Numbered from the stretch's first letter, positions 2,250 through 26,310 are shown. The stretch is 33,299 nt of DNA from Promethearchaeia archaeon (GCA_029856085.1 JAHQWI010000113.1:1-33299); one strand, 5' to 3'. Translations and numbers: made by a program. The notes: generated from the sequence alone by a model not told the origin.

Positions 2250-2301
2250 TATCTTAATTTTATTTAGTTTTAATAATAATTGTAAAATTAATAAAAAATT
2301 T

Positions 2302-4806
2302 CTACATTCTATGAGATTCTCTTGCGATAATCTCATTTTGTAATTCTCTTCCAATAGCAGTAAAGTATGCGTTATAACCTGTTACTCTAACTAGAAGATT
2401 AGTATAATTTTCAGGGTTTTTTTGAGCATCTTTTAACATTTTGACATCGAGCATATTGATTTGTAGAGCAGTGCCTCCGTTTTCTATATAACCTCTTAAA
2501 TAAGCTTTAAATTTTTCTTTATGCTCTGGATCTCTAATTATAGATGGATTAAATGTAATTGTATGACTTGCTCCATTGGGTAAGTAATTAATATATTCTC
2601 CAGATTCAATTTTACCTCCTAATGTCTTACCAACAGAATTAGTAACCGCAGTAGGTCCCTTCATATCAGCTCCATCGGTAGGACAAATAGCATTTGACAG
2701 AAATGATCCATTATTTCGTCCATTTGGAGTAGCTATTGTATAACTAGCATCAGCTCCTGCCCAATAGTTCCATGATAACATTCCTGGACGATATTGATGA
2801 TTAGTTGGTGTTTTATAAATCCAACATTCTTCTGCCCATGTTTCCATTACCATTCTAGCTAGTTCATCAGCATCATCTTCATCGTTTCCATATTTTGGAG
2901 CCTTATTCCTTAAGTATGTTTGCATTATCTCATTTCCTTTGAAGTCACTCATAATGGCATCCTTAATCTGCGCTATTGTATATTTCTTATCTTCATAAAC
3001 TAGCTTTTTAATTGCTAATAATGAATCTACTGTTGTAGCAAAACCCACACCTTCAACAGTAATAAATCTCAATTCCGGACCGCCATTTGTAATATCTAAA
3101 CCTTGCTCTATACATCCCCGAACCATCGATGATAAGTATGGAGTACGAATAAAATCTCCTCGAAGTTCTTCGCACATATTATTCAAATCTACAGTATATT
3201 TAATTATAAATCTCACTTGTTCTTTCCAAGCGTTATAAAAATCCTCCCATGTTTGAAATTTTTCAGCGTCTCCCCTTTCTGGTCCGATTTGCTCCCCAAG
3301 TTTAGTAATAATATTATCCCCCGGCATATTTTGTCCATTCCACAATGTTAACTCTATAGATTTAGTTAAATTAGGATTGCAATTTACAGTTCCACTTCTA
3401 TCATTGCCTTGCATTGTGTTTTCCAAACAACCTACTACTCCATAATTCCAAGCTTCTTCTTTACGTATGCCTTCTTTAATCATTCCAGCAATACTCCTCT
3501 CATCAAAATTTAGAATGAATGGAGAACCCTGAGCTCTAGCAATCATATCTACTAAAATATCTAAAAGTTTATCAGGAGAATTTCTATGAATCCTTACATT
3601 CGGTTTAGGCTCAAGACTAGGGTACCACGAATCTATAACTTCAAGCATAGTATATGTAAGTTCATTTGTTAAATCTTCTCCATTTGGACCACACCCTGAG
3701 AGCGTTATAATTTGACCAAATGCTGATGTTATTCCCTGTTTACCAGCTTTGATCATTGCATCATAAGTTGTATTACAATGAAACCAGAAACTACCTAAAA
3801 TCTCTTTTGCAAACTCTTTAGTGATCTTTTTTTGCTCAATAACGTCTTTTTTATACAAATCCCATAGGTATTGATCAAGTCTCCCAAAAGAAAGGCCTGC
3901 TCCGGGGTAAGATTCTTCAGCCATTACTAACATATGAATGAGCCAAACTGTTTGAACCCCCTGCCAAAAAGTCTCAGCAGGTTCCCATGGCACTCTTTCT
4001 AAATTTCTTGACATTTGTTCAAGTTCTTGTATTCTTTCAGGTTTAAATGTATCTTCTTTTAATTTTCGACATTCTTCAGCGTACTTTTTTGCTAATTCCC
4101 TTGGAATTTCTGCTGAGATCATCATTGCCCTAAGTTCTTCTCCTTTTGAACCACTTTTTTCCTCTTCGCTAAGGTTATCGTATGTCTTTCTGGCTTTTTC
4201 ATAAATATATTTAAATCCTTCTTTAACTACTGTTTCATAATCAGGTATAATATGACCTGATGTTGCTCCTAGATTTCCGAAACCAGATTTATGATATTTA
4301 AAAACAGCTTCTCGATTTTTTATATTTTTTTTCCAATATTCTTTCGCTTCTTCTTCATTAAAACATTTGCTTAATTGTGTATTAAATCTCCCACCTGCAA
4401 TTAAATCATTTTCAGAAATAATTTCCTGAGGAATATAGTCAAGCATAACTTTTTCGAAAAATATTGCTCTTCGTTCGGGTAATGATAATTCCCAAAAATC
4501 ATCTGGTAATTCTATTGGTATAGCCATTGATCTAAAAGATGAAGCAAATACACCTTTATCATTTTTTCCCAAAATTTGGATATAGCTATATACATCAGGA
4601 GACACATAAAAATCTCCCTCATGAAAAACAATATCCCAATCTGTTCCTGTTGTAAATGGCATATATTGGTTATTCCAACCTCGTTTTAATCCCTTAAAGT
4701 AATAATTTCTAAGCCATTTAGAACGAGGAGAAAGATCATGAGGTTCAGCAATAGGAAATTTAGGCTCTTCTTTTCGATTATCTTGATTTCTATTAATGTT
4801 AATCAT
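2302..4806 (-). CDS. Glycyl radical enzyme (pyruvate formate-lyase superfamily, substrate unknown)
   Basis: 834 aa; active-site Cys loop WNYGVVGCLENTMQGND and C-terminal glycyl radical motif LLVRVTGYNAYFTAIGRELQNEII; next to its activase. Confidence 0.93.
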   Translation of the reverse strand: MININRNQDNRKEEPKFPIAEPHDLSPRSKWLRNYYFKGLKRGWNNQYMPFTTGTDWDIVFHEGDFYVSPDVYSYIQILGKNDKGVFASSFRSMAIPIELPDDFWELSLPERRAIFFEKVMLDYIPQEIISENDLIAGGRFNTQLSKCFNEEEAKEYWKKNIKNREAVFKYHKSGFGNLGATSGHIIPDYETVVKEGFKYIYEKARKTYDNLSEEEKSGSKGEELRAMMISAEIPRELAKKYAEECRKLKEDTFKPERIQELEQMSRNLERVPWEPAETFWQGVQTVWLIHMLVMAEESYPGAGLSFGRLDQYLWDLYKKDVIEQKKITKEFAKEILGSFWFHCNTTYDAMIKAGKQGITSAFGQIITLSGCGPNGEDLTNELTYTMLEVIDSWYPSLEPKPNVRIHRNSPDKLLDILVDMIARAQGSPFILNFDERSIAGMIKEGIRKEEAWNYGVVGCLENTMQGNDRSGTVNCNPNLTKSIELTLWNGQNMPGDNIITKLGEQIGPERGDAEKFQTWEDFYNAWKEQVRFIIKYTVDLNNMCEELRGDFIRTPYLSSMVRGCIEQGLDITNGGPELRFITVEGVGFATTVDSLLAIKKLVYEDKKYTIAQIKDAIMSDFKGNEIMQTYLRNKAPKYGNDEDDADELARMVMETWAEECWIYKTPTNHQYRPGMLSWNYWAGADASYTIATPNGRNNGSFLSNAICPTDGADMKGPTAVTNSVGKTLGGKIESGEYINYLPNGASHTITFNPSIIRDPEHKEKFKAYLRGYIENGGTALQINMLDVKMLKDAQKNPENYTNLLVRVTGYNAYFTAIGRELQNEIIARESHRM

Positions 4807-10726: not shown

Positions 10727-11857
10727 TTAATAATATTTCAATATTTTATATAAAGTATCTCTCTGAGCTGGTTTCTTGCCAGCTGCTTTAATTATTTTAA
10801 TAATTTCTTCTGGAGCCAAATACTGACCAAATTCCGCTCCAGCACTTCTTGATATATTTTCCTCCATTAAGGTTCCTGAAAAATCGTTTACACCATAATT
10901 TAAAGAGACTTGAGCAAGTCGAGGTCCAAGTTTTACCCAAGAGCATTGTAAATTATCAATGTAATTATTTAGAAATATTCGAGACAAACAAAATAATTTT
11001 AAATCTGCCATCCCATAACTTGGTTTTAAGGGATGATCTTCTAATCTAGATAAAATAGGATTTTCTTTTACAAATGGTAAAGGTACGAACTCTGTAAATC
11101 CATTAGTCTCCTTCTGAATACCTTTCAAAACTTCTAAATGTTTAATCCTATCCTCCAGAGATTCAATATGTCCATACATTATAGTTGAAGTTGTTGGGAT
11201 TTCCAGGTTATGTGCCATAGTGATAATATCAATCCATTGCTGCGTGGAAATTTTATTAGGGCATACAATTTTCCTAATTTCATCAACTAAAATCTCAGAT
11301 GCCGTTCCTGGAATTGAATCTAATCCTGCTTTTTTTAGCTCTTTTAAGGTATTTTCTATTGAACTTCCATATAATTTCGACATGAAGTAGATTTCTTGTG
11401 GAGAAAATGCATGGGTATGCATATTTCTATCAACATTTTTAACCACTTTGAGAATATCTAAATAAAAATCAAAATTTAATTCAGGATTTATTCCACCTTG
11501 AATACACACTTCTGAGCAATTTGAATTTTTCGCTTCAAATACTCTATCTCTAATTTCATCTAAAGATAGTAAAAACGCATCTTTGTGATTAGCTGGTAAA
11601 CTAAATGAGCAAAATTTACAACCCTGAAAACATATATTTGTAAAATTTATATTTCGATTAATCACAAAAGTTATGATATCTTCTTTCTTTTCAAAACAAA
11701 TTTTATTTGCTACATACTGTAATGCAAAAAATTCTTTTCCACTAACTTTTAATAATTTTAACGCTTCATTAGAGGAAATTTCTTCATTTTTCAACGCTTT
11801 TTCTAAAATTTCCTTTATATCCGTTTTTATTTGACTGAACATCTGAGAAGCTAACAT
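10727..11857 (-). CDS. cofH: Fo synthase subunit CofH (radical SAM)
   Basis: NICFQGCKFCSFSLP radical SAM motif; ending GVNDFSGTLMEENISRSAGAEFGQYLAPEEIIKIIKAAGKKPAQRDTLY as in CofH; paired with CofG. Confidence 0.92.
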   Translation of the reverse strand: MLASQMFSQIKTDIKEILEKALKNEEISSNEALKLLKVSGKEFFALQYVANKICFEKKEDIITFVINRNINFTNICFQGCKFCSFSLPANHKDAFLLSLDEIRDRVFEAKNSNCSEVCIQGGINPELNFDFYLDILKVVKNVDRNMHTHAFSPQEIYFMSKLYGSSIENTLKELKKAGLDSIPGTASEILVDEIRKIVCPNKISTQQWIDIITMAHNLEIPTTSTIMYGHIESLEDRIKHLEVLKGIQKETNGFTEFVPLPFVKENPILSRLEDHPLKPSYGMADLKLFCLSRIFLNNYIDNLQCSWVKLGPRLAQVSLNYGVNDFSGTLMEENISRSAGAEFGQYLAPEEIIKIIKAAGKKPAQRDTLYKILKYY

Positions 11858-12960
11858 TAATAATTTATATTATCTATAGTTTTTTTAATACTTTTTGGGC
11901 AAAAGCCTTTTTTATTTATAAACTTATCATAGATTGGGAGCCTCTCTTTAAGTATATAACCTTTAGATCCACAGATATTTTTTAATTCATCAATCTGAGG
12001 CCACTTATGTTCTGGATTTATATAATCTAAAGTAACTGGAGATATCCCGCCAAAATCATTTATTCCCATTTCAATTAGTTCTTTTTCATATCCAGATATT
12101 AGATTAGGTGGAACTTGGATGGAAATTTCATTTTCAAAAATAATTTTCGCAATCCCTACAATTCTTAAAATATCTTCAATTTTAATTGCTATTTTTGGTT
12201 TATACAAAATACCTGGTTTTTCTACAAAGTTTTGGATTATTACCTCTTGTATATGGCCATAGGATTCGTAAATGCTTTTAATTAATAACAAATCTCTTAT
12301 TCTATCATCGAAAGATTCTCCAATCCCTAATAATAATCCTGTGGTAAAGGGTATTTTTAATTTTCCTGCATTATTTATATGCTCAATCCGTTTAGAAGGG
12401 ATTTTTCCTGGTGATTGTTCATGTACCTCACCTTTCTTGAATAATTTCATACTAGTACTCTCAAGCATCAAACCCATACTAGCGTTATAATCTTTTAATA
12501 GTCTCAATTCATCAAAAGTAAGTATTCCTAAATTAGTGTGAGGTAATAGATTAAAATCTAATAAATATGCAGTTATATCCTTTACAAATTCAATAAAATC
12601 ACTACAATCTCTTTTTTTTAGTTCATCCTTCACTTCCTTAAAACTATCAGGTTTTTCTCCAGACATTATTAAAGCTTCTTTACAATTGAAGCTAATACCT
12701 CTCTGGATTATAGTTTGCATTTGCTCGTTTCCAAGTAATATGATATTTCGTTCTCCATCTATTTTAGGAATTTTATGGTTATAGAAACAATAACTACAGA
12801 AATTTTGACAATAATTTGATAATGAGAGTGTAAAATTTTTTGAATAAGTAATCACAAATCTTTTTTCGTTTGGTACTGCGGATTTTATATCTTTGACTTT
12901 CTCTCTTAATTTTTTAATAGAAAGACTTTTTAGCAGTTCAATTTTTTCTTCATTCATCAT
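11857..12960 (-). CDS. cofG: Fo synthase subunit CofG (radical SAM)
   Basis: NYCQNFCSYCFYNHKIPK; TTGLLLGIGES; GINDFGGISPVTLDYINPEHKWPQI, characteristic of CofG. Confidence 0.92.
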   Translation of the reverse strand: MMNEEKIELLKSLSIKKLREKVKDIKSAVPNEKRFVITYSKNFTLSLSNYCQNFCSYCFYNHKIPKIDGERNIILLGNEQMQTIIQRGISFNCKEALIMSGEKPDSFKEVKDELKKRDCSDFIEFVKDITAYLLDFNLLPHTNLGILTFDELRLLKDYNASMGLMLESTSMKLFKKGEVHEQSPGKIPSKRIEHINNAGKLKIPFTTGLLLGIGESFDDRIRDLLLIKSIYESYGHIQEVIIQNFVEKPGILYKPKIAIKIEDILRIVGIAKIIFENEISIQVPPNLISGYEKELIEMGINDFGGISPVTLDYINPEHKWPQIDELKNICGSKGYILKERLPIYDKFINKKGFCPKSIKKTIDNINY

Positions 12961-13625
12961 TGCTTCCTACGATATCTTAAAATTACATAATTATTCCTGT
13001 TATTTATTTCGATTAAATCAAATCTTAATGCTTCAGTCATTTTATCAAAACCTATTCCCTCCACTAAACTAATTGCTTCTTTCCCCCCTACAATCCAAGG
13101 TGCTATAGTAAGTCTTATTTCATCAATTAAATCTTCTTCTATAAAACTCCAATTCAAATTTCCTCCACCTTCTAGTAAAATAGAATTTATTCCACAATCC
13201 TTTAAAAGTGGCATGAGTTTTTTTAAATCTACACGTTTTCTCGTTCCCGCTTTGATAACTTTAACTTTTTTCTCTTCATACTTTTTTATCTCATTGAGAG
13301 ATACGTTTTCAGTTGTGCAAATTATTGTAGGATAAATCTCTGGTTGAAAAGAAATGACATTGGATTCAATTGGGATGGTAAGGTTGCTATCTACAACAAT
13401 TCTATAGTAGCCAGTATGGTCATAAAATTTAATATGCAATTTTGGATTATCTTTTAAAATTGTACCTTTCCCAACCATTATAGCATCAACCTGTGTTCTT
13501 AATTTATGAACTTCTTTCCAATCAACTTCATCAGATAACTCCGGATCTCCCGTTTTAGAAGCAATTTTTCCATCGATCGTCATCGCTGAGCTTAATATGA
13601 TATATGGTTTTTCAGTTTCTCTCAA
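12957..13625 (-). CDS. arfC: 2,5-diamino-6-(ribosylamino)-4(3H)-pyrimidinone 5'-phosphate reductase (RibD C-terminal-like)
   Basis: PYIILSSAMTIDGKIASKTGDPELSDEVDWKEVHKLRTQVDAIMVGKGTILKDNPKL; LLEGGGNLNWSFIEEDLIDEIRLTIAPWIVGG. Confidence 0.9.
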   Translation of the reverse strand: MRETEKPYIILSSAMTIDGKIASKTGDPELSDEVDWKEVHKLRTQVDAIMVGKGTILKDNPKLHIKFYDHTGYYRIVVDSNLTIPIESNVISFQPEIYPTIICTTENVSLNEIKKYEEKKVKVIKAGTRKRVDLKKLMPLLKDCGINSILLEGGGNLNWSFIEEDLIDEIRLTIAPWIVGGKEAISLVEGIGFDKMTEALRFDLIEINNRNNYVILRYRRKQ

Positions 13626-14781
13626 ATACCACTTCTCCTTTTATATAGGTTTTTATAATATTTTCTGATCTTGTTCTTTGAACAATTAAATCAAGGATAT
13701 TGCTTTCATCTAGCTCATTTATGTAAAGGTTTGAATCATTTAAGTTTATCACGAAGAAATCTGCATATCTTCCTACTGATATAGCACCATGTTTAGTCTC
13801 CAAATGAAAGTTTTTAGCTGCATTAATTGTCACCATTTTTAATAATTCTTTAGAGGTTAATTGTATTGTTTTATCATAACTCCCTAAAACCCTTGAAATT
13901 CGATATAAATAACGCATTTCTTCAAATAAATCAGAATTATTAGCCATTAAATTATCTGTTCCTAAAGATATAGGGATTTTTAATCTTAGAATTTCTGTAA
14001 TAGGTGGAAATCCCACTCCAAAATATCCATTACATCGAGGACATAAAACTAATGATATCTTTTCTTTTTGAATTCTTTCTAAATCCTCCTTAATAAATTT
14101 TGTTCCATGAACGATTATATCAACTAAATTATCGTTAAACAAATCACTTATTAACCTTAAATTGCGATTTCTTTCAGCGCAATGGCAAGAAATTAGTTTT
14201 TTAGTATTTTGTTTTGATTTAGAAACGAATTTCTTATTGTTAGCAGAAATTTTGTCATAACTAGCCAATCCAAGACCATCCGCTAATTCAAAAATTAAAT
14301 CTATTTCACTCTCATCCATAAATCGACCGAAAATTAAACAATTAATTGGAAATTGTTCTATAGATTTTTTTAAAAGCTTTACACCATCAACACCCCCTTC
14401 CCTGAAATCAATAAAACAAGTTATTCCATTTGAAAGCATTTCTAAGGTTGCATTTTTAATACCTTTAATTATGATCTCTTCAGAAGTTTGCCTAAGCAAT
14501 TTATGCTTGAGACCAAACGGTGGTGCTACAACTTCAGCTAAGTCTTTATTAAATCCTAATTCTTTCGCAAAATTATCTCCAATATGGGTATGAGAATTAA
14601 TTAAACCTGGCAATAATATATGATTTTGCATGTTTTCCGCAATTTCGATAGATGTTTCTGGATTTTTATGATTAATTTCAAAAATAATTCCATTTTCATC
14701 TATTTCTATAAAAACATCTCTCTTAAGCACTAAATCCTCTCCGATTAGTGCAAATTTGCTGAAAACTCTTTTATTGGGCAT
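13612..14781 (-). CDS. Metal-dependent amidohydrolase (COG0402-like deaminase family)
   Basis: HILLPGLINSHTHIGD; SCHCAE; IIVHGTKF; ISLGTDNLMANNSDLFEEMRYL; AISVGRYADFFVINL. Overlaps the ArfC-like gene by 14 nt. Confidence 0.88.
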   Translation of the reverse strand: MPNKRVFSKFALIGEDLVLKRDVFIEIDENGIIFEINHKNPETSIEIAENMQNHILLPGLINSHTHIGDNFAKELGFNKDLAEVVAPPFGLKHKLLRQTSEEIIIKGIKNATLEMLSNGITCFIDFREGGVDGVKLLKKSIEQFPINCLIFGRFMDESEIDLIFELADGLGLASYDKISANNKKFVSKSKQNTKKLISCHCAERNRNLRLISDLFNDNLVDIIVHGTKFIKEDLERIQKEKISLVLCPRCNGYFGVGFPPITEILRLKIPISLGTDNLMANNSDLFEEMRYLYRISRVLGSYDKTIQLTSKELLKMVTINAAKNFHLETKHGAISVGRYADFFVINLNDSNLYINELDESNILDLIVQRTRSENIIKTYIKGEVVFERN

Positions 14782-14854
14782 ATACTTGAGAAAATCAAAT
14801 TATTTGAAAGATATAATATAAAATATATCTAATCTTTTTTAAGAATAGAGAAAA

Positions 14855-14874
14855 TAAAAATAAATATTTAAAAC
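14855..14874 (+). promoter_or_regulatory. Candidate archaeal promoter (aaataaatatttaaaactgg region) upstream of mptA
   Basis: TATA-like sequence about 30-45 nt before ATG 14902, compatible with a short-leader transcript; weak in an AT-rich background. Confidence 0.35.
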
Positions 14875-14901
14875 TGGTGTTTCAAAATTCATAAATTTAA
14901 A

Positions 14902-15846
14902 ATGGATTTACAGGATTCTGATTCAGCAATAGATATTGCTATAGATAAAGTTGGAATAGTTGAAATGGAGAAAAAAGTTGAAATCGTACAAGAGAACAAA
15001 AATTACTCTTTTTATCCTAAGATTTCAGCATTAATCGATCTTCCTGCCCAACAGCGCGGTATCCATATGTCGCGAACTACTGAAACCATAGAGGAAGTTA
15101 TAAATGAAGTAATATATAAACCAACTCCTACAATTGAATTGGTAGGTGATAGAATTGTTAAAAGGTTACTAGAACAACATCCATACACTTCAAAAGCAGA
15201 AGTAAAATTAGAGGGAAAGATTATCGTACAAGTAAGAGAAAATAACACTAGGAACATCCAAAAATCTTACAGTATTAGTTCCTACGTCAATGCTAACAGA
15301 AAATCGTCTGATGAAATTGAATATCTCTACTTCATTGGAGCAAGTGCTGTGGGGATGACAGTATGTCCCTGTGCAAAAGAAATGTCTCAAGAATACGCCA
15401 CAGAAATTATTAAAACTAGAAAAGATATAAAAATCAATGATGAAGATCTTAAGAAATTAATAAATATACTCCCCTTTTCCTCACATAATCAAAGATCCAT
15501 TGGTACTATTATGGTTCAAATAAAAGACTTAACTGGTCAAAAGATTGATGTTTTAGATATCATTGATGTAATTGAAGAATCTATGAGTGGCAAGATACAA
15601 TCTGTATTAAAAAGACCTGAAGAAGCCGAATTAGTAAGAAGTGCTCATTTAAAACCTTTATTCTCCGAAGATGTTATCAGGGAAATGGCAAAAAATTTCA
15701 TTTTGAGAGACTTTCCAAACATAGAAGATAATTATGAAATAATATTTAAAGTTGAATCTTTTGAAAGTATTCATGTCCATAATGTATATGCTGAATTAAA
15801 AACTACGATTGGGGATTTAAAGGAAAGGTTAAAAATAAAAAATTAA
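14902..15846 (+). CDS. mptA: GTP cyclohydrolase MptA / FolE2 family
   Basis: LPAQQRGIHMSRTTETIEEVI; GMTVCPCAKEM; LPFSSHNQRSIGTIMV, canonical FolE2/MptA motifs. Confidence 0.92.
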   Translation: MDLQDSDSAIDIAIDKVGIVEMEKKVEIVQENKNYSFYPKISALIDLPAQQRGIHMSRTTETIEEVINEVIYKPTPTIELVGDRIVKRLLEQHPYTSKAEVKLEGKIIVQVRENNTRNIQKSYSISSYVNANRKSSDEIEYLYFIGASAVGMTVCPCAKEMSQEYATEIIKTRKDIKINDEDLKKLINILPFSSHNQRSIGTIMVQIKDLTGQKIDVLDIIDVIEESMSGKIQSVLKRPEEAELVRSAHLKPLFSEDVIREMAKNFILRDFPNIEDNYEIIFKVESFESIHVHNVYAELKTTIGDLKERLKIKN

Positions 15847-15871: not shown

Positions 15872-17077
15872 CTATTTCTTATTATTCACAAAGTGTTTTA
15901 AGACGATTATATAATTTTTTACTGTTAAAATTTTTGGATTCTTTCGATAATTCACTGGAATTGGGGCATTACATCGAGAGCAGAGATTTGAACTTCGTAA
16001 CCAATCCTTAAATTCGTCTGCGTGAGCAGGATATCGACAATTAGGACACAATATTATTCCTCTTCCTCTGTCTTCAGGGATTTTCGGTAATTTAAAACAG
16101 AAGATACATTTAAAATCCTCTGTTGATAAGCGTGCGGCTTTTGGCTTATATTGATTAAAATTTGTTATTTTTCTAGTACTTTGTTTACTTCTTACTTGTG
16201 TTCCCGTTGGACCTCTACTTGTAGTTCTATTTGTTGTTTTAGATCTTGATGTTGTAGATCGTCTTTGTGATGTTGGTGTTGATCTTGATGAATAACTAGC
16301 TGATCTTGATCTATTAGTTACAGTTCTATTTGAGGGTGTTGGAGATGATCTTGTTGTTGTTCGAGTGCTTTCTCTATATCTTCGAGGAGTTGTATTTCTT
16401 CTAGGTGATGCCAATTGATTTAACCTATTTGTACGTTGTGTTATGTAATCTCTTGTTAATTGGGGTAACCGTGATCGCGTCCCAAATAATCCAGGGATAA
16501 TAATTATTAATATAGTACTGATAAGCAATGCTAAAAGATTAAGATCTATTAAAAAATGAAGAGGTATTAAATGGAGTTCATAGAAGTCGATAAGTGAATA
16601 AAAGCTTATCCAATAAATAATTATAAAAAACAGAATTGAGATACCTAAAATATATCCAAATTTACGTGCATTTACGGATTTCGTTCCAAAATAAATTACA
16701 TTATATTTTTTGAAACAACGATATAGAGAAATTGACCCATATAATATATAAGGAAATCCAAATAGAATACTCCACCAGCTTAAATACAAATCTGTATCTT
16801 CTAGAAGATTTTCTCCCAATAAACCTGTAAAATTTCCCCAGATTGAATAAAAAATTCCAATAAAAACAGGAGCAATTGTAAAAAATGCAGTATTATGAGG
16901 TGAATTAAATTCGCGATATTGCTTAATATTTTTTAAAACCTTAAATGAAAATATTAGCCAGATTCCAATTAACAACCAACTTACAAAGACATTAACAGAA
17001 TTTAGAATAGCACCATGTATTATGCCGATAATTGAAAATGCAATTAATAGTAGAGCTATTGATTTAGTTTTCACCAC
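15872..17077 (-). CDS. Multi-pass membrane protein with SR/T-rich linker and C-terminal RING-like zinc finger; candidate E3 of the adjacent ubiquitin-like system
   Basis: About 6 hydrophobic segments (ALLLIAFSIIGIIHGAIL; FVSWLLIGIWLIFSF; FFTIAPVFIGIFYSIW; SILFGFPYILYGSISLY; GYILGISILFFIIIYWISF; LLALLISTILIIIIPGLFG), then a Ser/Thr/Arg low-complexity region, then CIFCFKLPKIPEDRGRGIILCPNCRYPAHADEFKDWLRSSNLCSRCNAPIP. Same strand and just downstream of the JAMM gene. Confidence 0.75.
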   Translation of the reverse strand: MVKTKSIALLLIAFSIIGIIHGAILNSVNVFVSWLLIGIWLIFSFKVLKNIKQYREFNSPHNTAFFTIAPVFIGIFYSIWGNFTGLLGENLLEDTDLYLSWWSILFGFPYILYGSISLYRCFKKYNVIYFGTKSVNARKFGYILGISILFFIIIYWISFYSLIDFYELHLIPLHFLIDLNLLALLISTILIIIIPGLFGTRSRLPQLTRDYITQRTNRLNQLASPRRNTTPRRYRESTRTTTRSSPTPSNRTVTNRSRSASYSSRSTPTSQRRSTTSRSKTTNRTTSRGPTGTQVRSKQSTRKITNFNQYKPKAARLSTEDFKCIFCFKLPKIPEDRGRGIILCPNCRYPAHADEFKDWLRSSNLCSRCNAPIPVNYRKNPKILTVKNYIIVLKHFVNNKK

Positions 17078-17106
17078 GGCTTAATAACCTCCTTCTATAT
17101 CATAAT

Positions 17107-17934
17107 TTAATCTTCGTCATATTCTAAATAAACTGGTTTCCCTTGAATAATAGGATTCATAAATGCTAAGATATCTGGTAACATTCGTATGTCTAATGAG
17201 CCTTTAATTCCATATAATAATGGATACCAAGTTTTTGTCTTCAGATTTGCTCGATAAATCTCAAAACCCGCTGAAGTTCCATCAATAAGGTAAGGATCAA
17301 TAACAAGTGCAACGGCTTTATCCCAGAGTTTTTGATATCTTTCTTGAGTGCCTATATCTTCACTAGACATGAAACAGCCAAAAGTTGGATGTGAATGATA
17401 CCATCCACACAAAAATAATTTCTGTTTTTTAATATCTCTATAAGCTCTCACATAATTCTTATAATCTTTAATTTCTGCATAAACTGCGGTTCCATGCCCC
17501 ATTGGGTAAGCATCTTCGATATGTAGTATATCATTTTTATCTAATTTTCCTCCAAGAAGCCCTATAACTTCCACCCAATTTACTTTTGGAATCTTATTAT
17601 TAGCATATTTAAGCGCATGGCTTGCTATTTTAAGGATTGCTTTTAATGATATATAGATTTCCTTTTGGATTTCCAGTTCAATTTGAGTTTCAACATTTTT
17701 TTTCTCTATCATTTTAGCTGTAGGTTCTTTTGAATGTTTTATAATTGGTTTAGCATTTGATTTCTGTGTAAGCATAGAAGTGATTTCTTCTGTTAATTCT
17801 TCTTCTTCTAATTTAAGCTCTTCACATATTTCATCTAATAATTCTTTTTTTATTTTTTCCTTAATTTTCCTCTTAATTTGATCTTTTATTGAATTATTAG
17901 ATAATTGTTTTTCTTCCATTAGGAAAATCACCAC
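17107..17934 (-). CDS. Rpn11/CSN5-like JAB1/MPN+/JAMM metalloprotease (candidate deubiquitinase)
   Basis: Full JAMM motif CGWYHSHPTFGCFMSSEDIGTQERYQ with upstream catalytic-type Glu (VNWVEVIGLLGG); ALVIDPYL as in Rpn11-type proteins; charged N-terminal extension. Confidence 0.95.
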   Translation of the reverse strand: MVIFLMEEKQLSNNSIKDQIKRKIKEKIKKELLDEICEELKLEEEELTEEITSMLTQKSNAKPIIKHSKEPTAKMIEKKNVETQIELEIQKEIYISLKAILKIASHALKYANNKIPKVNWVEVIGLLGGKLDKNDILHIEDAYPMGHGTAVYAEIKDYKNYVRAYRDIKKQKLFLCGWYHSHPTFGCFMSSEDIGTQERYQKLWDKAVALVIDPYLIDGTSAGFEIYRANLKTKTWYPLLYGIKGSLDIRMLPDILAFMNPIIQGKPVYLEYDED

Positions 17935-18455
17935 TTCTTATTTGCATACTTTTTTACTAAGTTTTTAACTTTTTTCTCGAAAAACTTAGGATTTTTCATC
18001 ATTTCTATTGCTGCTTTTTTATTAAAAACATCTGTTGGATTTACATATTTACCACGGGTGTTTAACATAGCAATTATTGCTTGAACAACTGTTACTGCTT
18101 TTTTTGATGGGCTCCATCCACCTTTTTTACCAATTAGAGAGGGATCTACTAAAGCTAAACAAATATTCCTCTGTCCTTTATATTCGGTAGGTTTTGGCCA
18201 AAAATTTGGATGCCATATTGGAGTATGCATTCTTACAAAAGGCGGTTGTTTAGGATACTGAGTAGGAAATTTCATTTCCAATTTAAAGACCCCCCCCCCA
18301 TATGCAGTACCCTTAGGACCTTTTATAGCTAGAGCTAAATGGTCAATACTCTTCTTTTTAGGATTAAATGGTTTTAATTGAACAATGGTTCCTTCCTTAA
18401 GCATTTTTTTTAATCCTGCAAAATCTTGGGAAATACGACTACTTCTTATACTCAT
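17928..18455 (-). CDS. E2 ubiquitin-conjugating enzyme-like (UBC fold)
   Basis: IKGPKGTAYGGGVFKLEMKFPTQYPKQPPFVRMHTPIWHPNFW...RNICLALVDPSLIGKKGGWSPSKKAVTVVQAIIAML: HPN motif and catalytic Cys in 'NICL'. Confidence 0.96.
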   Translation of the reverse strand: MSIRSSRISQDFAGLKKMLKEGTIVQLKPFNPKKKSIDHLALAIKGPKGTAYGGGVFKLEMKFPTQYPKQPPFVRMHTPIWHPNFWPKPTEYKGQRNICLALVDPSLIGKKGGWSPSKKAVTVVQAIIAMLNTRGKYVNPTDVFNKKAAIEMMKNPKFFEKKVKNLVKKYANKKW

Positions 18456-18556
18456 TTTTTCATACCTTTTTATTATTTCTTCTAATTCTTTATTATTATA
18501 TTTTTTTTTAATGTTTTTTTGTTAAATTTTATATAAAATATTTTTTGGTTAAATTC

Positions 18557-19792
18557 TTATCTCAATTTTAAGGTTACAAAAATTTCTCCATCTTTAAATC
18601 CTGCAGCTGTAATTAATTCATAATTTCTCAAACCATTTTCATCAGCGGTCTGTTCTAAATCTACAATCTTTATATCATTGAAATCTAATAAAGTAAGGAC
18701 TGGCTCAGAATCTTTATCCAGTTCAAAACCATTATTTTTCAATATCTCAATTAATCTTCCACAGGGTGATTGAGATCTTAATTTTATAGATACTCTTCGA
18801 ACATTTTTACCACATTGAGAACATTCTGGATTTCTTTGTTTTTCAATATGATAAAATTTCATGGTCATTGCATTTAAGATTATATAACTTTGAACAGGCT
18901 CACCTAATGCTTTATGTCCTTTTCTCCAATGAAGAATTTTTACTGCTTCATGTGATTGTAATGCAGAAATAACTGCATTTATGGTTATTATTCCAGGATC
19001 ATGTCTATCAATAATTATTACAATATCATCTTCTGTATATTCAGGTAAGAAATTATGTTTATTAACTAATTCATTTGCAACTTTTTGAATGAATTTAATA
19101 TCATTTATATTCTTTGGATTTGGATCTCTGTCAAATTTTTCTTTAAATGCCATATCTCCTTTAAAAACGCAATGAATTCTTTTTCGGGGAATTCCTACTA
19201 CCGTGCAAGCCGCCATCTCATCATTTCCTCCCATAGGCAACGGATTGCATTCATAACAAGCATTTTGATAAGGAAAAATTGTATATACATGGCCATGATA
19301 ACCAGATACACCTCCATCCACTAAAGGCTTTTTAAATCTTATACATTGAGCATTTAAGTTTAAACGTGCATTCATCGAATCAAGGCCACCTATGATAACA
19401 TCAGCAGCCTGATATATCGCAGGATTCAATCGTTCTAATGAAGTATAATATCCCTTGATAATGATATTAGGATTAATTTCCCTTAGTTTTCTAGCTGCAA
19501 TAATTGCCTTAGGCTCTCCGATCTTTGCTCCACTGAAAAGAATTTGTCGGTTCAAATTAGAGTGTTCAATGATATCTAAATCGACGAGATCTAAACAACC
19601 AACTCCAAGCATAGCTAAGTTCTTAGCAATTTCACAACCTAAACCACCAACACCAGCTATTAACACTCTCGAGTTTTTTACCAATTTCTGAGACCAACCC
19701 TCAAGACGAAACTGGCGATCATACAAATTTCTCTCTTCCACTGATAATTCTTTTCCGAAAAATTCTGAACCCTTATCCAATATTATCACCAT
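18557..19792 (-). CDS. E1-like ubiquitin-activating enzyme (UBA3-like: ThiF adenylation domain, catalytic Cys segment, two CxxC, UFD-like C-terminus)
   Basis: YDRQFRLEGWSQKLVKNSRVLIAGVGGLGCEIAKNLAMLGVG; DLDIIEHSNLNRQILFSGAKIG; CYECNP...AACTVVGIPRKRIHCVFK; NPECSQCG; C-terminal IEILKNNGFELDKDSEPVLTLLDFNDIKIV...ELITAAGFKDGEIFVTLKL. Confidence 0.95.
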   Translation of the reverse strand: MVIILDKGSEFFGKELSVEERNLYDRQFRLEGWSQKLVKNSRVLIAGVGGLGCEIAKNLAMLGVGCLDLVDLDIIEHSNLNRQILFSGAKIGEPKAIIAARKLREINPNIIIKGYYTSLERLNPAIYQAADVIIGGLDSMNARLNLNAQCIRFKKPLVDGGVSGYHGHVYTIFPYQNACYECNPLPMGGNDEMAACTVVGIPRKRIHCVFKGDMAFKEKFDRDPNPKNINDIKFIQKVANELVNKHNFLPEYTEDDIVIIIDRHDPGIITINAVISALQSHEAVKILHWRKGHKALGEPVQSYIILNAMTMKFYHIEKQRNPECSQCGKNVRRVSIKLRSQSPCGRLIEILKNNGFELDKDSEPVLTLLDFNDIKIVDLEQTADENGLRNYELITAAGFKDGEIFVTLKLR

Positions 19793-19871
19793 TAATTTTA
19801 ATAAAAAAAATAAAAAAAGTTGAAGGGCTAAACACCCTTATATTATAAATTATAAAGAAAATTATTTAAGT

Positions 19872-20207
19872 TTACCCAGCAGTACTGGCAGGAATCAAAA
19901 GAATATCATCTCCATCATTTACATGATATTCTTTTAATGAGCCATTTTCATCCATTGTCACTCCACCAGATGATAAATGAAAGTCATTAGGATCAAGTCC
20001 ATATAAATTTCCTAATGTTTGTTTAATGTCATCAACGCAATTTCCGTCATTCACAGTTAATTTTTCCTTCTTTTCACCAGGACCAATAGTTGACATAAAA
20101 TATAAAGTTATTTTCTTTCCTGTTGAAGGGATTTTAGTCATGGGTGTTTTAGATTTCATAGGTTCTTCCCCAACTAAATCCTCATCAAATTCTTCTTCAA
20201 AACTCAT
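19872..20207 (-). CDS. Ubiquitin-like modifier (Ubl-1), beta-grasp with acidic N-terminal extension, C-terminus ...PASTAG
   Basis: KKITLYFMSTIGPGEKKEKLTVNDGNCVDDIKQTLGNLYGLDPNDFHLSSGGVTMDENGSLKEYHVNDGDDILLIPASTAG; first gene of the E1/E2/JAMM/RING set. Confidence 0.9.
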   Translation of the reverse strand: MSFEEEFDEDLVGEEPMKSKTPMTKIPSTGKKITLYFMSTIGPGEKKEKLTVNDGNCVDDIKQTLGNLYGLDPNDFHLSSGGVTMDENGSLKEYHVNDGDDILLIPASTAG

Positions 20208-20366: not shown

Positions 20367-22709
20367 TCATGGCATGAAGGAAAATAGTTCCTCAATCTCA
20401 TCAATAGGTAATCTTGAAATAATTGAAGACGTGGGAGTTATAATCTGCCTTGATAACTTTCTTTTTTCCTCCAGTAGTTTATCAATCTTTTCTTCTATTG
20501 TTCCTGTAGCAACAAATTTATAAACATTAACATTCTGATCTTGACCAATCCGATAAGCTCTATCAGTAGCTTGTGACTCCGTGCTAGGATTCCACCACCG
20601 ATCTACATGTATTACAGTTGTTCCTTGGGTTAAATTTAAACCAAAACCACCAGCTTTTAGGGAAACAATTAGAATTTTTGAACTTACCTCTTTACTTGAT
20701 TGAAAATCCTTTACAATCTTATCTCTTTGATTGGGATTCAAGCTACCATGAAAAAATGATATTATTTCCCCAAATTTAGCGTTAAAAGCCATTAGTAAAA
20801 TATCCCCCAACGTTTTATACTGTGAAAATATGAGAACCTTTTGGTCATTTTCAAGAATGTTCTCAACAATATCAAAAATCCTCGCGATTTTAGGAGATTG
20901 TATTAGAAAATCCTTGAGGTTTTTCTTAAAATCATATTTGGCTGGATCAATTTTAAGATATTGTAATGGGTGATTGCAAAGTTGTTTTAGCTTAGTTAAT
21001 AGTTTAAGTACAAGCCCACTTCGCATTTTTGCACTATCATAATTTTCTCTTATATCCTTAATGACTTCATCCACGATTTTTTTGTATAGGCTTATTTGGA
21101 AGGCAGACAGGTTAATATATATCGTTATTTCATTTTTTTCCGGTAAATCTTTAATCACATTTTTGTCTGCTTTTAAACGTCTCAATATAAAGGGATCTAT
21201 AATTGCTTTTAGCTTTTTGATTTTTTCGACATTTTGATAAACCTCAATCGGATTGACAAATGTTTTCCTAAACTCACTCAATGAACCTAATAGTCCAGGA
21301 TTTAGAAAATTAAAAAGCGACCATAATTCATCGAGACGATTTTCTATGGGAGTACCACTTAATGCGATTCTAAAAACCCCTTTTAATTGGTAAATGGATT
21401 TGGCTCTTTTGGAATTAGAATTTTTAATATTTGTCGACTCATCAATTATAATACCATTAAATTTTATATCTTTTAGGAAGTCTATGTCGTTTCTTATGAC
21501 TCCGTAGGAAGTTAAAATTATTTGGTGAGCAATAAGAAAGACATCTCTCTTATCACGGAGATTCCCCCTATTCGGGCCATAGTATTTCAAAACCTTCAAT
21601 TTGGGAGAAAATCTCATTATCTCATGCTCCCAGTTAGTTAATAAGGATGTAGGACACACGATTAAAACGCTACCTTCTTCATTAGGATAATTCTCTAGTC
21701 GGTATAAGAGATAAGCTAGAATTTGTATGGTCTTACCGAGGCCCATATCATCTCCCAAGCATACTCCTAACCCTATATCACATAACATCGCTAACCAAGA
21801 AAGTCCCACCTGCTGGTAATCCCTTAGTTCACCCACGAAATCTTTTGGGACCTCTATTAGTTTAAAATTTAACTTATTCTTGATATTATTTATTTTTATT
21901 CTAAGATCTCCTAAAAATTTAATTTTATAATCTCTTCTCAAAAGTAAATTCGTGTATTTATCTATTAGCTCTAATTTTATTACCTCTGCTATCTTCATTT
22001 TACCAGAAAATCCATTACTAGCATAAATCTTCTTTAAAAAATCTAGATCTTCCTTGTTAATGAAAACCCATTTATTATCTCTCCATTTTATCAACGGATT
22101 ATCCATTTTCGATAATTTTTTCAATTCGTCTAATCCTACAGGTTTTCCGAAAAGAATAATTTCCCATCTGAAATCTACCAGAGAATCTAAACTAAAATCA
22201 GATTTAATTTTAAATGTTTTGGACTCGATCAATAATCTGGCCGATAAACCTCTCTTCTGTGTCAATCTTAATTTGGCGGGGTATTGAACCTTAAATCCAA
22301 TATATTTAAGTAACTCTATTGGATGGGTAAGAAATTCAGAAACCTCGGAAGAAGTCATCTCAATATTTTGGGGGTATTTGTTCTTTAAAGCGCGGTTTAA
22401 GGGAGGAAATACTTTAGTTGCTATTCTCATCGAATCTAAAAGCATGTTTAGAAACTTCTTTTTTTTTAAAAGAATGCTCACAAGCTTTTCACGAAATAAC
22501 TCATCATAATTCCACAAATCAGCCAATGGTGTAAAAAAGTTATCATTATGGAATTTTAGATAAAATTTGATTGGCCATCTATCCGACTCGTTTTTAGGCA
22601 ATTCTATCGAGATATAGAACTCCACTGTTTTATGAAAGATTGGCTTAAGTTTTGCTTGAAATTTTGGATCAAACTTCTTATTATTAGAGAAATCTTCTAT
22701 AAACTCCAA
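20367..22709 (-). CDS. SNF2-family DNA-dependent ATPase/helicase (N-terminus probably extends to 22767 through an apparent frameshift)
   Basis: LRDYQQVGLSWLAMLCDIGLGVCLGDDMGLGKTIQILAYL; IIIDESTNIKN; ALSGTPIENRLDELWSLFNFLNPG; QSSKEVSSKILIVSLKAGGFGLNLTQGTTVIHVDRWWNPSTESQATDRAYRIGQ. Confidence 0.95.
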   Translation of the reverse strand: MEFIEDFSNNKKFDPKFQAKLKPIFHKTVEFYISIELPKNESDRWPIKFYLKFHNDNFFTPLADLWNYDELFREKLVSILLKKKKFLNMLLDSMRIATKVFPPLNRALKNKYPQNIEMTSSEVSEFLTHPIELLKYIGFKVQYPAKLRLTQKRGLSARLLIESKTFKIKSDFSLDSLVDFRWEIILFGKPVGLDELKKLSKMDNPLIKWRDNKWVFINKEDLDFLKKIYASNGFSGKMKIAEVIKLELIDKYTNLLLRRDYKIKFLGDLRIKINNIKNKLNFKLIEVPKDFVGELRDYQQVGLSWLAMLCDIGLGVCLGDDMGLGKTIQILAYLLYRLENYPNEEGSVLIVCPTSLLTNWEHEIMRFSPKLKVLKYYGPNRGNLRDKRDVFLIAHQIILTSYGVIRNDIDFLKDIKFNGIIIDESTNIKNSNSKRAKSIYQLKGVFRIALSGTPIENRLDELWSLFNFLNPGLLGSLSEFRKTFVNPIEVYQNVEKIKKLKAIIDPFILRRLKADKNVIKDLPEKNEITIYINLSAFQISLYKKIVDEVIKDIRENYDSAKMRSGLVLKLLTKLKQLCNHPLQYLKIDPAKYDFKKNLKDFLIQSPKIARIFDIVENILENDQKVLIFSQYKTLGDILLMAFNAKFGEIISFFHGSLNPNQRDKIVKDFQSSKEVSSKILIVSLKAGGFGLNLTQGTTVIHVDRWWNPSTESQATDRAYRIGQDQNVNVYKFVATGTIEEKIDKLLEEKRKLSRQIITPTSSIISRLPIDEIEELFSFMP

Positions 22710-22996: not shown

Positions 22997-23668
22997 ATGA
23001 GTTCCTTGGATAATTTAGAATCTATTGTTTTTAAATTAGTAAAAGAATATTTGACGAAAAAGACATTCTTTTCGATTAATGATATTGTAGAATTTATAAG
23101 TAACCGTGTCAGATTAAATCCCGAAATCAACCGAAATAAAATTGAGTTAATTATAAAATCGTTAATAAGAAAAAAAACGATTATTCCTGGAACGAGATTA
23201 ATGAAGAATAATATCATTGAAAATCCAAAAAGGAATGAGATCTACAATTTCATAAAAAAGAATCCCTCTAATATTAATGAGATAATGAGAAATCTAAAGA
23301 TTGGAAGCAATCAAGCATTATGGCACCTATCTTGTTTAGAAAAATTTGAATTTGTCAGATCAAAAAAACTCAATAACCATCGGATTTTCTTTGAATTTGA
23401 TTCAAATCCAAAGCTTGATAAGTTTTACTATTATTTGAATAAAGACATAGTTCTAAAATTAATAGAATTTCTGAGTAGAGAAGGTCGGCCATTCAAAATA
23501 ACTGAAATAGCAAATGGTATGAAAAAGAATCACACTACTATAAAAAAGTACATCACCATTCTAGAAAATCTGAAATTAGTAGAAACTGAGAAAGACAAAA
23601 ATAGAATATTATTCAAATTAGATATTAAAAAGTATAATAAGGTTAGGAAATCAATTCAAGGTGGTTAA
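22997..23668 (+). CDS. Winged-helix/HTH transcriptional regulator (two HTH-like segments)
   Basis: NEIYNFIKKNPSNINEIMRNLKIGSNQALWHLSCLEKFEFVRSKKLN and REGRPFKITEIANGMKKNHTTIKKYITILENLKLVETEK. Confidence 0.75.
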   Translation: MSSLDNLESIVFKLVKEYLTKKTFFSINDIVEFISNRVRLNPEINRNKIELIIKSLIRKKTIIPGTRLMKNNIIENPKRNEIYNFIKKNPSNINEIMRNLKIGSNQALWHLSCLEKFEFVRSKKLNNHRIFFEFDSNPKLDKFYYYLNKDIVLKLIEFLSREGRPFKITEIANGMKKNHTTIKKYITILENLKLVETEKDKNRILFKLDIKKYNKVRKSIQGG

Positions 23669-23753: not shown

Positions 23754-24551
23754 ATGAGGAAAAAATATAGAACATTAAGCGTTATTACTCTCTACGCTAT
23801 TTTTGTTTTAATTTACATAAGTTTTTTCCTATTTGGAATAAATAATACCCCGTTATTTCTTACACTAACAATTGGGAGTGTTGCAGTTCTCTCAACTAGT
23901 ACAATCTACACAGTTATCCAATCTAAAGGTTATCAACATGATAAAATAAGAGATAAGAAATATTCACCGAAACCTAAGTCTATCCATAATATAGACGAGA
24001 AAATTATTGATGATTATCTTGAGGCTTTGCCTTCAATAGAAGAATATCTTGATTCAAATGAAACTTATGAGGATATACCAATGATCAATAAATACATTTT
24101 TTCAGTTTTTAGTAAGGAAGAATTGGGAAAAATAAACTATCTTGGATTGTCAAAGCTTGACAAAATACTATTTATTAGAGAAATGCTCTATTTTGATGAA
24201 GATGAGCGAAAAGTATTAATCGACAACATGCTTAAGAACAGAGATAAAACTGATGAGGAAATATTTTATATACCCCCAAAGAATACAGTTAATCTAAAGG
24301 ATCAGATCCGCGTTTACATAAGGTCTTTAGCCGAGGCCGGCGAGATAACAAAGTTGATCATTGTTGATACAACTGAATTAATTAGTACTATTAAAGAGAG
24401 AGTAGGAGTATTATTTAATTATGAATTGAAGGATTTCCTGTTATCTTCAGGGGGCATCTTACTATCAGAAGAAAAGAAAATACAAGACTATGATATTGAT
24501 GACGATGATGAAATTGCTCTGATTCCCTCTAGAAAAAAAAAAAATAATTAA
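23754..24551 (+). CDS. Membrane protein with two N-terminal TM segments and a C-terminal ubiquitin-like domain lacking a conjugatable tail
   Basis: TM1 TLSVITLYAIFVLIYISFFLFGI, TM2 PLFLTLTIGSVAVLSTSTIYTVI; C-terminus LIIVDTTELISTIKERVGVLFNYELKDFLLSSGGILLSEEKKIQDYDIDDDDEIALIPSRKKKNN aligns without gaps to Ubl-2 (KLLINSGNLVGDIKETVANLFGLDPDDFYLSSGGVTMDEQNPLKDYYVDDGDDILLIPASIAG). Confidence 0.8.
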   Translation: MRKKYRTLSVITLYAIFVLIYISFFLFGINNTPLFLTLTIGSVAVLSTSTIYTVIQSKGYQHDKIRDKKYSPKPKSIHNIDEKIIDDYLEALPSIEEYLDSNETYEDIPMINKYIFSVFSKEELGKINYLGLSKLDKILFIREMLYFDEDERKVLIDNMLKNRDKTDEEIFYIPPKNTVNLKDQIRVYIRSLAEAGEITKLIIVDTTELISTIKERVGVLFNYELKDFLLSSGGILLSEEKKIQDYDIDDDDEIALIPSRKKKNN

Positions 24552-24597: not shown

Positions 24598-24969
24598 TTA
24601 ACCAGCAATACTTGCTGGAATTAAAAGTATATCATCTCCGTCATCTACATAATAATCTTTTAAAGGGTTCTGTTCATCCATTGTTACTCCTCCAGAACTT
24701 AAATAAAAATCATCTGGATCTAAACCAAATAAATTTGCTACTGTTTCTTTAATATCTCCAACAAGATTTCCAGAATTTATGAGTAATTTTTGTTTTTTCT
24801 CACCAGGGCCAATAGTTGACATAAAATATACTGAAATCTTTTTCCCCTCAGGAACAGCCTTCGCAGCAGGAGTTTTTGAATTTATTTCTTTCCCGGGGAT
24901 TTGATCCATTTCTTCATCCAGATCTTCATCAAGTTCTAATTCTTCATCAAATTCTTCATCAAATCCCAT
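24598..24969 (-). CDS. Ubiquitin-like modifier paralog (Ubl-2), highly acidic N-terminal extension, C-terminus ...PASIAG
   Basis: KKISVYFMSTIGPGEKKQKLLINSGNLVGDIKETVANLFGLDPDDFYLSSGGVTMDEQNPLKDYYVDDGDDILLIPASIAG; ungapped alignment with Ubl-1. Confidence 0.88.
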   Translation of the reverse strand: MGFDEEFDEELELDEDLDEEMDQIPGKEINSKTPAAKAVPEGKKISVYFMSTIGPGEKKQKLLINSGNLVGDIKETVANLFGLDPDDFYLSSGGVTMDEQNPLKDYYVDDGDDILLIPASIAG

Positions 24970-25173: not shown

Positions 25174-26310
25174 ATGAATGATAAACCTATTCCTAAGTAT
25201 CAAATTCGAGAAAAAACACCTGATGAAGAAGTAGATTCGATTTCAGATAAAAAATTGTTAAAAAAAATAAAAAAAGAAAAAATTGCTTTAGATAAAGAAA
25301 AGAGTGAATGGGAAAGAGTTGTTAATCAGATTGAAAATTATAATGATAACATCAAAGATCTTGAAAAAAAAAGGAAAGATATTGAGCTCGAAGTTAAAAA
25401 TCTTCTTGAGCGAAGGGATCACTTACGGAGTGAATTAAAAAGATCGAAAAATGAGCTAGACCAGAATAGAAATGAATTAGCTATCAAAGAAAGGCAGTTT
25501 AAAGAAAAAATCATTAGAAAGAATGGAGATTTAGATCAAAAAAATGCTCAATTAGAAAAATTTCAAGCTAAATTAGATATACTACGTGAAGATATTGGAA
25601 AGGAAAAGATTAATTTAGAGAGAGAAAAAGCAAGAACAGAAGATCGTGTAAAGGAAATTAAAACTAAACTGCCTGGCATGGAAAGAAGAGAAAGTGCTTT
25701 AGAGAGAACTATTAAAGATTTAGAAAATCAATTAATGGATTTAAGGAATGAAGTTAAGGATTTAACTAAAGAAAAAGATAATTTAAATAGGGAAATTAAT
25801 AATCAAAAGAGGGAGATTACTGATGAAAAAAATCGAATCTCTGATGCAAAGAGAAAACTAAAAGAAGAAAGAGAAAAAACACGATATACAAAGCAAGATT
25901 TAGATCTTAAAGCTCGTGAAATTGATAAGAAAAAAGCAGATTTAAAACATTATAGGGATAAGGTTGAAAGAGATGTAAAGGATTTAGAAAATAGAAAGCG
26001 ACAGCAAGAAGCAAGGTTTAAAGAGTTAGAAAGAAAAATCCCTCGGGCAGAAGATACATATTACTCATTAACGAAAAAAATTCCTGATTTAGAGGAAAAA
26101 CTTAGAAAACTAAATAATGAATATAAACAAATAGCAAAAGAAAAATCATTATTAGATAACAAAAAAAATACTATTAAACGTGAAAGAGAAAAGCTAGAAA
26201 AAGATAAACAAAGATTTCTAAATGAAAAACGAGATTTTGAAAAAGAATTAAGAAAGATCAAAACTATTCCAAAACATAAAATTAAAACTAAGACTCCTTC
26301 AAAATACTAA
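25174..26310 (+). CDS. Long coiled-coil protein of unknown function
   Basis: 378 aa, continuous heptad-like K/E/L-rich sequence (e.g. LEKKRKDIELEVKNLLERRDHLRSELKRSKNELDQNRNELA). Confidence 0.75.
   Translation: MNDKPIPKYQIREKTPDEEVDSISDKKLLKKIKKEKIALDKEKSEWERVVNQIENYNDNIKDLEKKRKDIELEVKNLLERRDHLRSELKRSKNELDQNRNELAIKERQFKEKIIRKNGDLDQKNAQLEKFQAKLDILREDIGKEKINLEREKARTEDRVKEIKTKLPGMERRESALERTIKDLENQLMDLRNEVKDLTKEKDNLNREINNQKREITDEKNRISDAKRKLKEEREKTRYTKQDLDLKAREIDKKKADLKHYRDKVERDVKDLENRKRQQEARFKELERKIPRAEDTYYSLTKKIPDLEEKLRKLNNEYKQIAKEKSLLDNKKNTIKREREKLEKDKQRFLNEKRDFEKELRKIKTIPKHKIKTKTPSKY

Follow-up and report, generated by a model that had tools for sequence, protein, structure and literature searches.

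A compact one-strand cassette for an Ala-Gly-terminated ubiquitin-like modifier with a membrane RING-like partner in a Lokiarchaeial genome

Results

The window analysed here is a stretch of 33,299 nucleotides from Promethearchaeia archaeon (GCA_029856085.1 JAHQWI010000113.1:1-33299), contig C113 of a Lokiarchaeia metagenome-assembled genome (MAG) of 3.26 Mb that is 80% complete; the closest named relative among the matches listed is Candidatus Lokiarchaeota isolate CSMAG_1226, with an E1 93% identical. Five open reading frames (ORFs), all on the minus strand between 15872 and 20207, encode in order a ubiquitin-like modifier (Ubl), an activating enzyme (E1), a conjugating enzyme (E2), a JAMM metalloprotease and a membrane protein with a RING-like domain (Table 1). 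Five consecutive minus-strand genes had been proposed at this place in an initial annotation made from the sequence alone, and both coordinates and strand agree with the ORFs found; the modifier, E1, E2, Rpn11-like JAMM, membrane RING-like partner, Ala-Gly (AG) tails and compact one-strand arrangement are likewise all supported. A Pfam search of the window proteins, the check that the annotation had called for, assigned E1 to ThiF and E2 to UQ_con, and E1, E2 and JAMM all scored above the curated cut-offs. Genes for a ubiquitin-like protein, E1, E2, JAMM and a RING-like protein are thus clustered as in the Caldiarchaeum-type operon.

The E1 consists of a ThiF adenylation domain, a catalytic-Cys domain, two zinc-binding CxxC pairs and a C-terminal beta-grasp domain resembling the ubiquitin-fold domain (UFD). 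Alignments of E1 sequences revealed that A195-C196 and C179/C182/C324/C327 are invariant, Cys196 being the predicted catalytic residue; a strict E1 motif was found in 64 of 90 sequences, and residue conservation is therefore taken from the alignments. In an AlphaFold (AF2) model with a predicted local distance difference test score (pLDDT) of 81.5, the beta-grasp-like domain occupies the place of the UFD, and comparison with known structures returned SAE2 (Z 25.8) and UBA3 (Z 24.9), together with ThiF/MoeB and UBA1. The ThiF fold, nucleotide motifs, Cys domain and UFD/UBL domain make up a ubiquitin-type E1 architecture. The label 'UBA3-like' given initially suits the architecture, but SAE2, UBA3 and UBA1 match about equally. 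No inactive ThiF partner subunit is encoded in the cassette, the rest of the genome not having been searched for one; as each chain also has a single adenylation domain, a homodimer seems likelier than a heterodimer.

The E2 has a UBC fold, and its matches in the PDB are E2s. H82-P83-N84 and C99, the predicted catalytic Cys following HPN, are invariant in the alignment, the HPN..C arrangement being present in all 99 E2s compared; the HPN-to-Cys and Cys-to-WSP spacings of the cassette E2 are long, the latter being 14 residues. The JAMM protein gave Rpn11 of Caldiarchaeum subterraneum (CsRpn11, 6fjv) as its top PDB match (1e-15). Residues E122, H180, H182, S190 and D193 are invariant, and H[ST]HP-x6-S-x2-D occurs in 87 of 87 JAMM sequences, which places the protein among the Rpn11-like JAMM/MPN+ proteases; its predicted role is both processing of the Ubl precursor (pro-Ubl) and deconjugation. 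The 7-nucleotide overlap between the E2 and JAMM genes noted initially stands if JAMM translation begins at the GTG at 17934, but is replaced by an 8-nucleotide gap if it begins at the in-frame ATG at 17919 (MEEKQ...), which is where the ORF starts in the nearest orthologue (locus L005).

For the modifier tail, 170 distinct complete Ubl ORFs were retrieved by profile. Using a profile built on AG Ubls and a pattern that fixed I, P, S and G and left the Ala position free, I-P-x-S-x-A-G was found near the end of 136 of the 170, with Ala preceding Gly in every one of the 136. Eighty of these end exactly at the Gly, and the other 56 extend for 1-7 residues that have no common sequence (for example YF, K, RLI, SSNRS and QDKHRFF); the I, P, S, A and G columns show zero entropy, against more than 2 bits immediately past the Gly. 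No GG ending was found among Ubl ORFs scoring above 60 bits in the Ubl profile search, and the tail-bearing ORFs carry AG where a Gly-Gly terminus, mature or processed, would stand. A sequencing artefact as the source of these tails is ruled out, AG occurring independently in many genomes. The pattern is as expected of a pro-Ubl with a putative processing and activation point after AG, and the cassette JAMM would be the obvious processing enzyme, given the precedent of Caldiarchaeum Rpn11. The remaining 34 ORFs are mostly a membrane-anchored form with charged residues at its end, which is unlikely to be conjugated.

Further AG Ubls and AG-bearing fusions were observed. Besides Ubl2, a second paralogue in the window, the genome holds a third AG Ubl (G000:C207:11625-11954; L261 3626-3958) that is 86% identical to the operon Ubl, and relatives have up to six Ubl matches per genome; several AG Ubl paralogues per cell are therefore usual. 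In Sigynarchaeota G081 (L079 2424-4121), a 565-aa protein combines CDC48_N-like and von Willebrand A domains with a C-terminal Ubl ending in STAG plus T, which may connect the AG system with an unfoldase or a proteasome-like receptor. Two HerA-like ATPases, of 602 and 580 aa, lie near the cassette in Borrarchaeum (L134 1910-3718 and L135 12072-13814), each carrying an AG Ubl at its C terminus. Proteins of ~260-300 aa (L075 11770-12660, L201, L202 and L204), downstream of the cassette in some genera, appear to carry a zinc-ribbon-like stretch at the N terminus and have a C-terminal ubiquitin (Ub) domain ending in STAG, RVAG or RVAE.

Conservation was analysed in 83 genomes of the window's class. 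Of these, 63 encode a close E2 orthologue together with the membrane RING-like protein and 18 encode neither; the two genomes that disagree have one of the two genes near a contig end. Genus g2, including two genomes reported as 100% complete, lacks both and carries only a divergent E2 of ~40% identity. The order Ubl-E1-E2-JAMM-RING is the same in 20+ loci of the class, and other Asgard groups have either this order or two blocks, E2-JAMM-RING and Ubl-E1. The cassette order thus recurs in Asgard genomes, as a synteny check was to establish, across the class and the phylum, and a chance cluster of ORFs is thereby ruled out. Named hosts among the matches listed, in dozens of loci, are Loki-, Hel-, Sigyn-, Sif-, Borr-, Heimdall- and Hodarchaea; spread beyond Asgard was covered by one scan, of whose 110 matches 80 were listed, all Asgard.

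The last gene of the cassette encodes a 401-aa multi-pass protein in the place of the small RING protein (srfp) of the Caldiarchaeum-type operon. A transmembrane (TM) scan detected four clear hydrophobic segments here and three to six in orthologues, and the membrane part is estimated at about 4-6 TM. A basic, S/T/R-rich linker of 132 residues follows, with 30 K/R against 4 D/E. Because basic segments of membrane proteins tend to face the cytoplasm (the positive-inside rule), the linker and the RING-like domain should be cytoplasmic. The C-terminal domain contains C-x2-C, C-x2-C-x4-H-x2-E-x3-W and C-x2-C, giving the ligand pattern C-C-C-C-H-E-C-C; RING spacing is kept, including the Trp that in known RINGs contacts the E2. 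Instead of eight Cys/His ligands in cross-brace order there are seven plus a Glu, E355 in the window protein, which takes the place of ligand six in 80 of 81 such proteins, and the last Cys has no R/K directly after it. For these two reasons the domain is called RING-like, and the candidate ligase of the initial annotation is upheld as a membrane partner with RING spacing. Forty of 41 orthologous domains matched zf-RING_16 and Prok-RING_1 at E values up to 1 (bests 3e-5 and 4e-5). Structural matches (VIA-align) were mostly RING/U-box proteins (RNF4, RING1B and U-boxes), the best being the RNF4 RING-type chain 2xeu (2.3 A over 57 residues, Z 5.9, a score that falls short of proving the fold alone). 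It may be that the domain is a plain zinc ribbon, and zinc ribbons are also among the weak Pfam matches of its members, but RING/U-box structures predominate among the matches, and the assignment as a RING is probable rather than proven.

GG-type loci of the same phylum encode a different ubiquitin, ending in RTEGG or, in Lokis, in QAGG plus one or two residues. The GG-type loci surveyed have small RINGs of 75-100 aa, 9 of 12 of which have all the C4-H-H-C2 ligands, and their E1s are ~340 or ~530 aa long. Of the 83 class genomes, 65 encode a GG ubiquitin of the Loki kind, among them the close relatives G041, G046 and G047; one GG ubiquitin from a near relative lies at L252 3004-3258. In maximum-likelihood trees without eukaryotic sequences, the AG-cassette E1s form one group (100/98) recovered in all 200 bootstrap trees, and the AG-cassette E2s fall in one clade (100/97), in which the only row not labelled AG comes from a short contig where no Ubl was seen (L144). 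The AG cassette was initially regarded as a local variant of a known operon type; the operon type is indeed known, but the variant is a separate lineage rather than a local one.

Two further observations concern other ubiquitin-like genes. The genome of the window has a divergent second system on G000:C185 (L084 3416-4846 and 7925-8443), comprising an E1-like protein that is long (476 aa, against ~530 in relatives) and an E2 whose Cys-to-WSP spacing is 20 residues, against 14 in the cassette E2. In some members of the family, GG-ubiquitin-like domains also occur inside very long open frames of ~550 to >4000 aa (G075:C1:47350-47583, G075:C219, G075:C59 and several G027 contigs).

Upstream of the cassette lie Ubl2 and mUbl, a membrane-anchored Ub-domain protein; the pair precedes the operon Ubl in 28 of 80 named loci. 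mUbl has an N-terminal TM segment and a C-terminal Ub domain that ends in IPSRKKKNN; it lacks a terminal Gly and is unlikely to be conjugated. Its winged-helix neighbour is a candidate regulator. An SNF2-family helicase (20367-22709, minus strand) between Ubl1 and the winged-helix/mUbl block is probably a recent insertion, as it was found only in the window and G047 among the loci compared. A conserved block of cofactor genes (10727-15846: CofG- and CofH-like proteins, a RibG-like reductase, an amidohydrolase and the GTP cyclohydrolase MptA) adjoins the cassette in class genomes, and 1245-4806 encodes a glycyl-radical enzyme, pyruvate formate-lyase-like, together with its activating enzyme, judged from translation alone.

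Table 1. Genes of the cassette and its neighbourhood in the window
Feature	Coordinates	Strand	Evidence
Ubl1, AG-terminated ubiquitin-like modifier, 111 aa, ends LLIPASTAG	19872..20207	-	PF00240 4e-5; tail conservation
E1, 411 aa	18557..19792	-	ThiF 2e-57; invariant Cys; AF2 model; SAE2/UBA3 matches
E2, UBC fold, 175 aa	17928..18455	-	UQ_con (PF00179) 5e-25; HPN; Cys99; spacings
Rpn11-like JAMM metalloprotease, 275 aa	17107..17934	-	JAB 1e-16; CsRpn11 match; motif
Multi-pass membrane protein with C-terminal RING-like domain, candidate E3, 401 aa	15872..17077	-	Orthologues; synteny; alignment; fold comparison
Ubl2, second AG-terminated paralogue, 123 aa, ends LLIPASIAG	24598..24969	-	Pfam scan; tail comparison
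mUbl, membrane-anchored Ub-domain protein	23754..24551	+	PF00240 7e-6, above cut-off; tails; TM
Winged-helix protein, conserved mUbl neighbour	22997..23668	+	HTH_5 1.5e-8; synteny
Coiled-coil protein, divergent to a Ubl gene in most class loci	25174..26310	+	Synteny

Discussion

Compact operons of this type are established for Caldiarchaeum and for some Asgard archaea, as the initial annotation stated. Archaeal ubiquitin operons, Asgard ubiquitin clusters and JAMM trimming are all known (PMC5654768, PMC6043591, PMC9192718, PMC10936438). The Ub/E1/E2/srfp/Rpn11 operon of Caldiarchaeum subterraneum (Hennell James 2017, PMC5654768; Fuchs 2018, PMC6043591) comprises the same steps as the cassette, with a neighbouring Rpn11-like JAMM, an E1 with a C-terminal UBL domain and a RING E3. 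Its Rpn11 trims nine residues from pro-ubiquitin to expose GG (PMC5654768, PMC6043591), whereas the tails described here have 0-7 residues after AG. A small RING protein serves there as E3, in contrast to the multi-pass membrane protein of the cassette, whose RING-like domain has Glu in sixth ligand position. Clusters for GG ubiquitin and for ubiquitin-ESCRT in Asgard archaea (Hatano 2022, PMC9192718; mBio 2024, PMC10936438) also group Ub, E1, E2, RING and JAMM, but differ in tail, in their small RING, in E1 size and in the separate branches of their E1s and E2s. No AG-tailed Asgard modifier and no membrane RING in such a cassette was found described in the literature covered, which did not extend to the 2017 Asgard genome paper or the supplements of PMC5654768 (clusters I-III), where either may have been noticed earlier.

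Two eukaryotic systems offer partial parallels. The NEDD8 pathway (UBA3-APPBP1, UBC12, CSN5) shares the UBA3/SAE2-like E1 layout and fold and a JAMM deconjugase, and most AG tails place Ala at the position of NEDD8 Ala72 in an alignment made by eye; NEDD8, however, ends in GG and has a heterodimeric E1, and the comparison implies no orthology with the cassette. HRD1-type ligases of endoplasmic reticulum-associated degradation likewise place a RING-like domain in the cytosol, C-terminal to several TM helices, a likeness that for the membrane part is one of analogy only.

The reading we consider likely, judged from sequence, is that the cassette encodes a dedicated conjugation pathway for an AG-terminated Ubl with a membrane E3, parallel to Asgard GG ubiquitin. 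The Ubl would be synthesised either with Ala-Gly at its very end or with a few further residues, which the cassette JAMM would remove to leave Ala-Gly. The E1 would adenylate its C-terminal Gly, form a thioester at Cys196 and hand the Ubl to Cys99 of the E2 with the assistance of the UFD-like domain. The membrane RING-like protein would then bring the charged E2 to the cytosolic face of the membrane and steer transfer onto lysines of membrane-associated targets, and JAMM would take the modifier off again. The sequences show the gene identities, the conservation of catalytic residues, the tail pattern, the co-occurrence and the separate lineage; every catalytic step, E3 activity, membrane substrates and the homodimeric E1 we infer, the chemistry from the named families. 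A separate pathway is favoured because the AG lineage spans several Asgard groups, and most of the genomes concerned encode GG ubiquitin as well. We lean only slightly towards the broader proposal that Asgard cells run two orthogonal conjugation systems, one with GG ubiquitin and the other with the AG modifier and its own E1, E2, JAMM and membrane E3.

Several observations weigh against a parallel AG pathway with a membrane E3. The window Ubl matched PF00240 with E 4e-5 and 23.8 bits, slightly below the cut-off of 25.4, which some of its orthologues exceed, and the tail tally drew on a profile of AG Ubls and a pattern with I, P, S and G fixed. The window RING-like protein alone matched zf-RING_16 with E 0.32, far below the Pfam cut-off; the model of its domain (AF2) is moderate (pLDDT 73.5), its best Foldseek E is 0.03 and its best Z 5.9. 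The nearly invariant Glu in sixth ligand position has to be added to these. GG ubiquitin was not found in the window's incomplete MAG, and coexistence of AG and GG modifiers is therefore seen in relatives, not here.

It is also possible, though unlikely, that the modifier pathway works while the membrane protein is not an E3 but a structural or binding zinc module, such as a Ubl receptor or membrane anchor, the E2 acting alone or with other RING proteins. This would fit the insignificant single-sequence Pfam matches, the Glu in place of a zinc ligand and missing R/K, and the further proteins with related zinc domains in these genomes. Strict synteny and co-occurrence with the E2 argue for an E3, however, as do the RING spacing with its conserved Trp, the RING/U-box structural matches and the retrieval of the small RINGs of GG operons by the RING-like profile. 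Less probable still is that the cassette is the Lokiarchaeal ubiquitin cluster already reported, ordinary machinery shared with the GG protein in which AG is trivial. Clusters of Ub, E1, E2, E3 and deubiquitinase genes have indeed been published for Loki-, Hel- and Heimdallarchaea (PMC5654768, PMC9192718), but most class genomes hold a distinct GG ubiquitin along with another E2 and E1, the AG ending does not vary across several Asgard groups, and the AG-cassette E1s and E2s lie in separate clades. That the Ubl acts as a sulfur carrier or is SAMP/Urm1-like, with conjugation secondary, is most improbable and was rejected: the E1 also resembles MoeB/ThiF, but SAMP/Urm1 systems pair an E1 and a Ubl without E2 or RING, whereas this cassette has a dedicated E2, an E1 with catalytic-Cys and UFD-like domains, a RING-like partner, a Ubl that matches ubiquitin and no rhodanese gene.

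Eukaryotes have many parallel ubiquitin-like pathways, most of them with a Gly-Gly tail, and the cassette may show such parallel pathways before eukaryotes. The AG pathway, if true, lies in a prokaryotic lineage close to eukaryotes and opens two questions to test: the time at which parallel Ubl pathways separated, and the way in which E1 and JAMM enzymes distinguish tails, the extensions of 0-7 residues behind the invariant AG being a natural series of ready test substrates. On the broader proposal of two orthogonal systems, several AG Ubl paralogues per genome and the AG Ubl fusions would be part of the signal repertoire, and both division of labour among Ubl pathways and control by a membrane-embedded E3 would predate eukaryotes.

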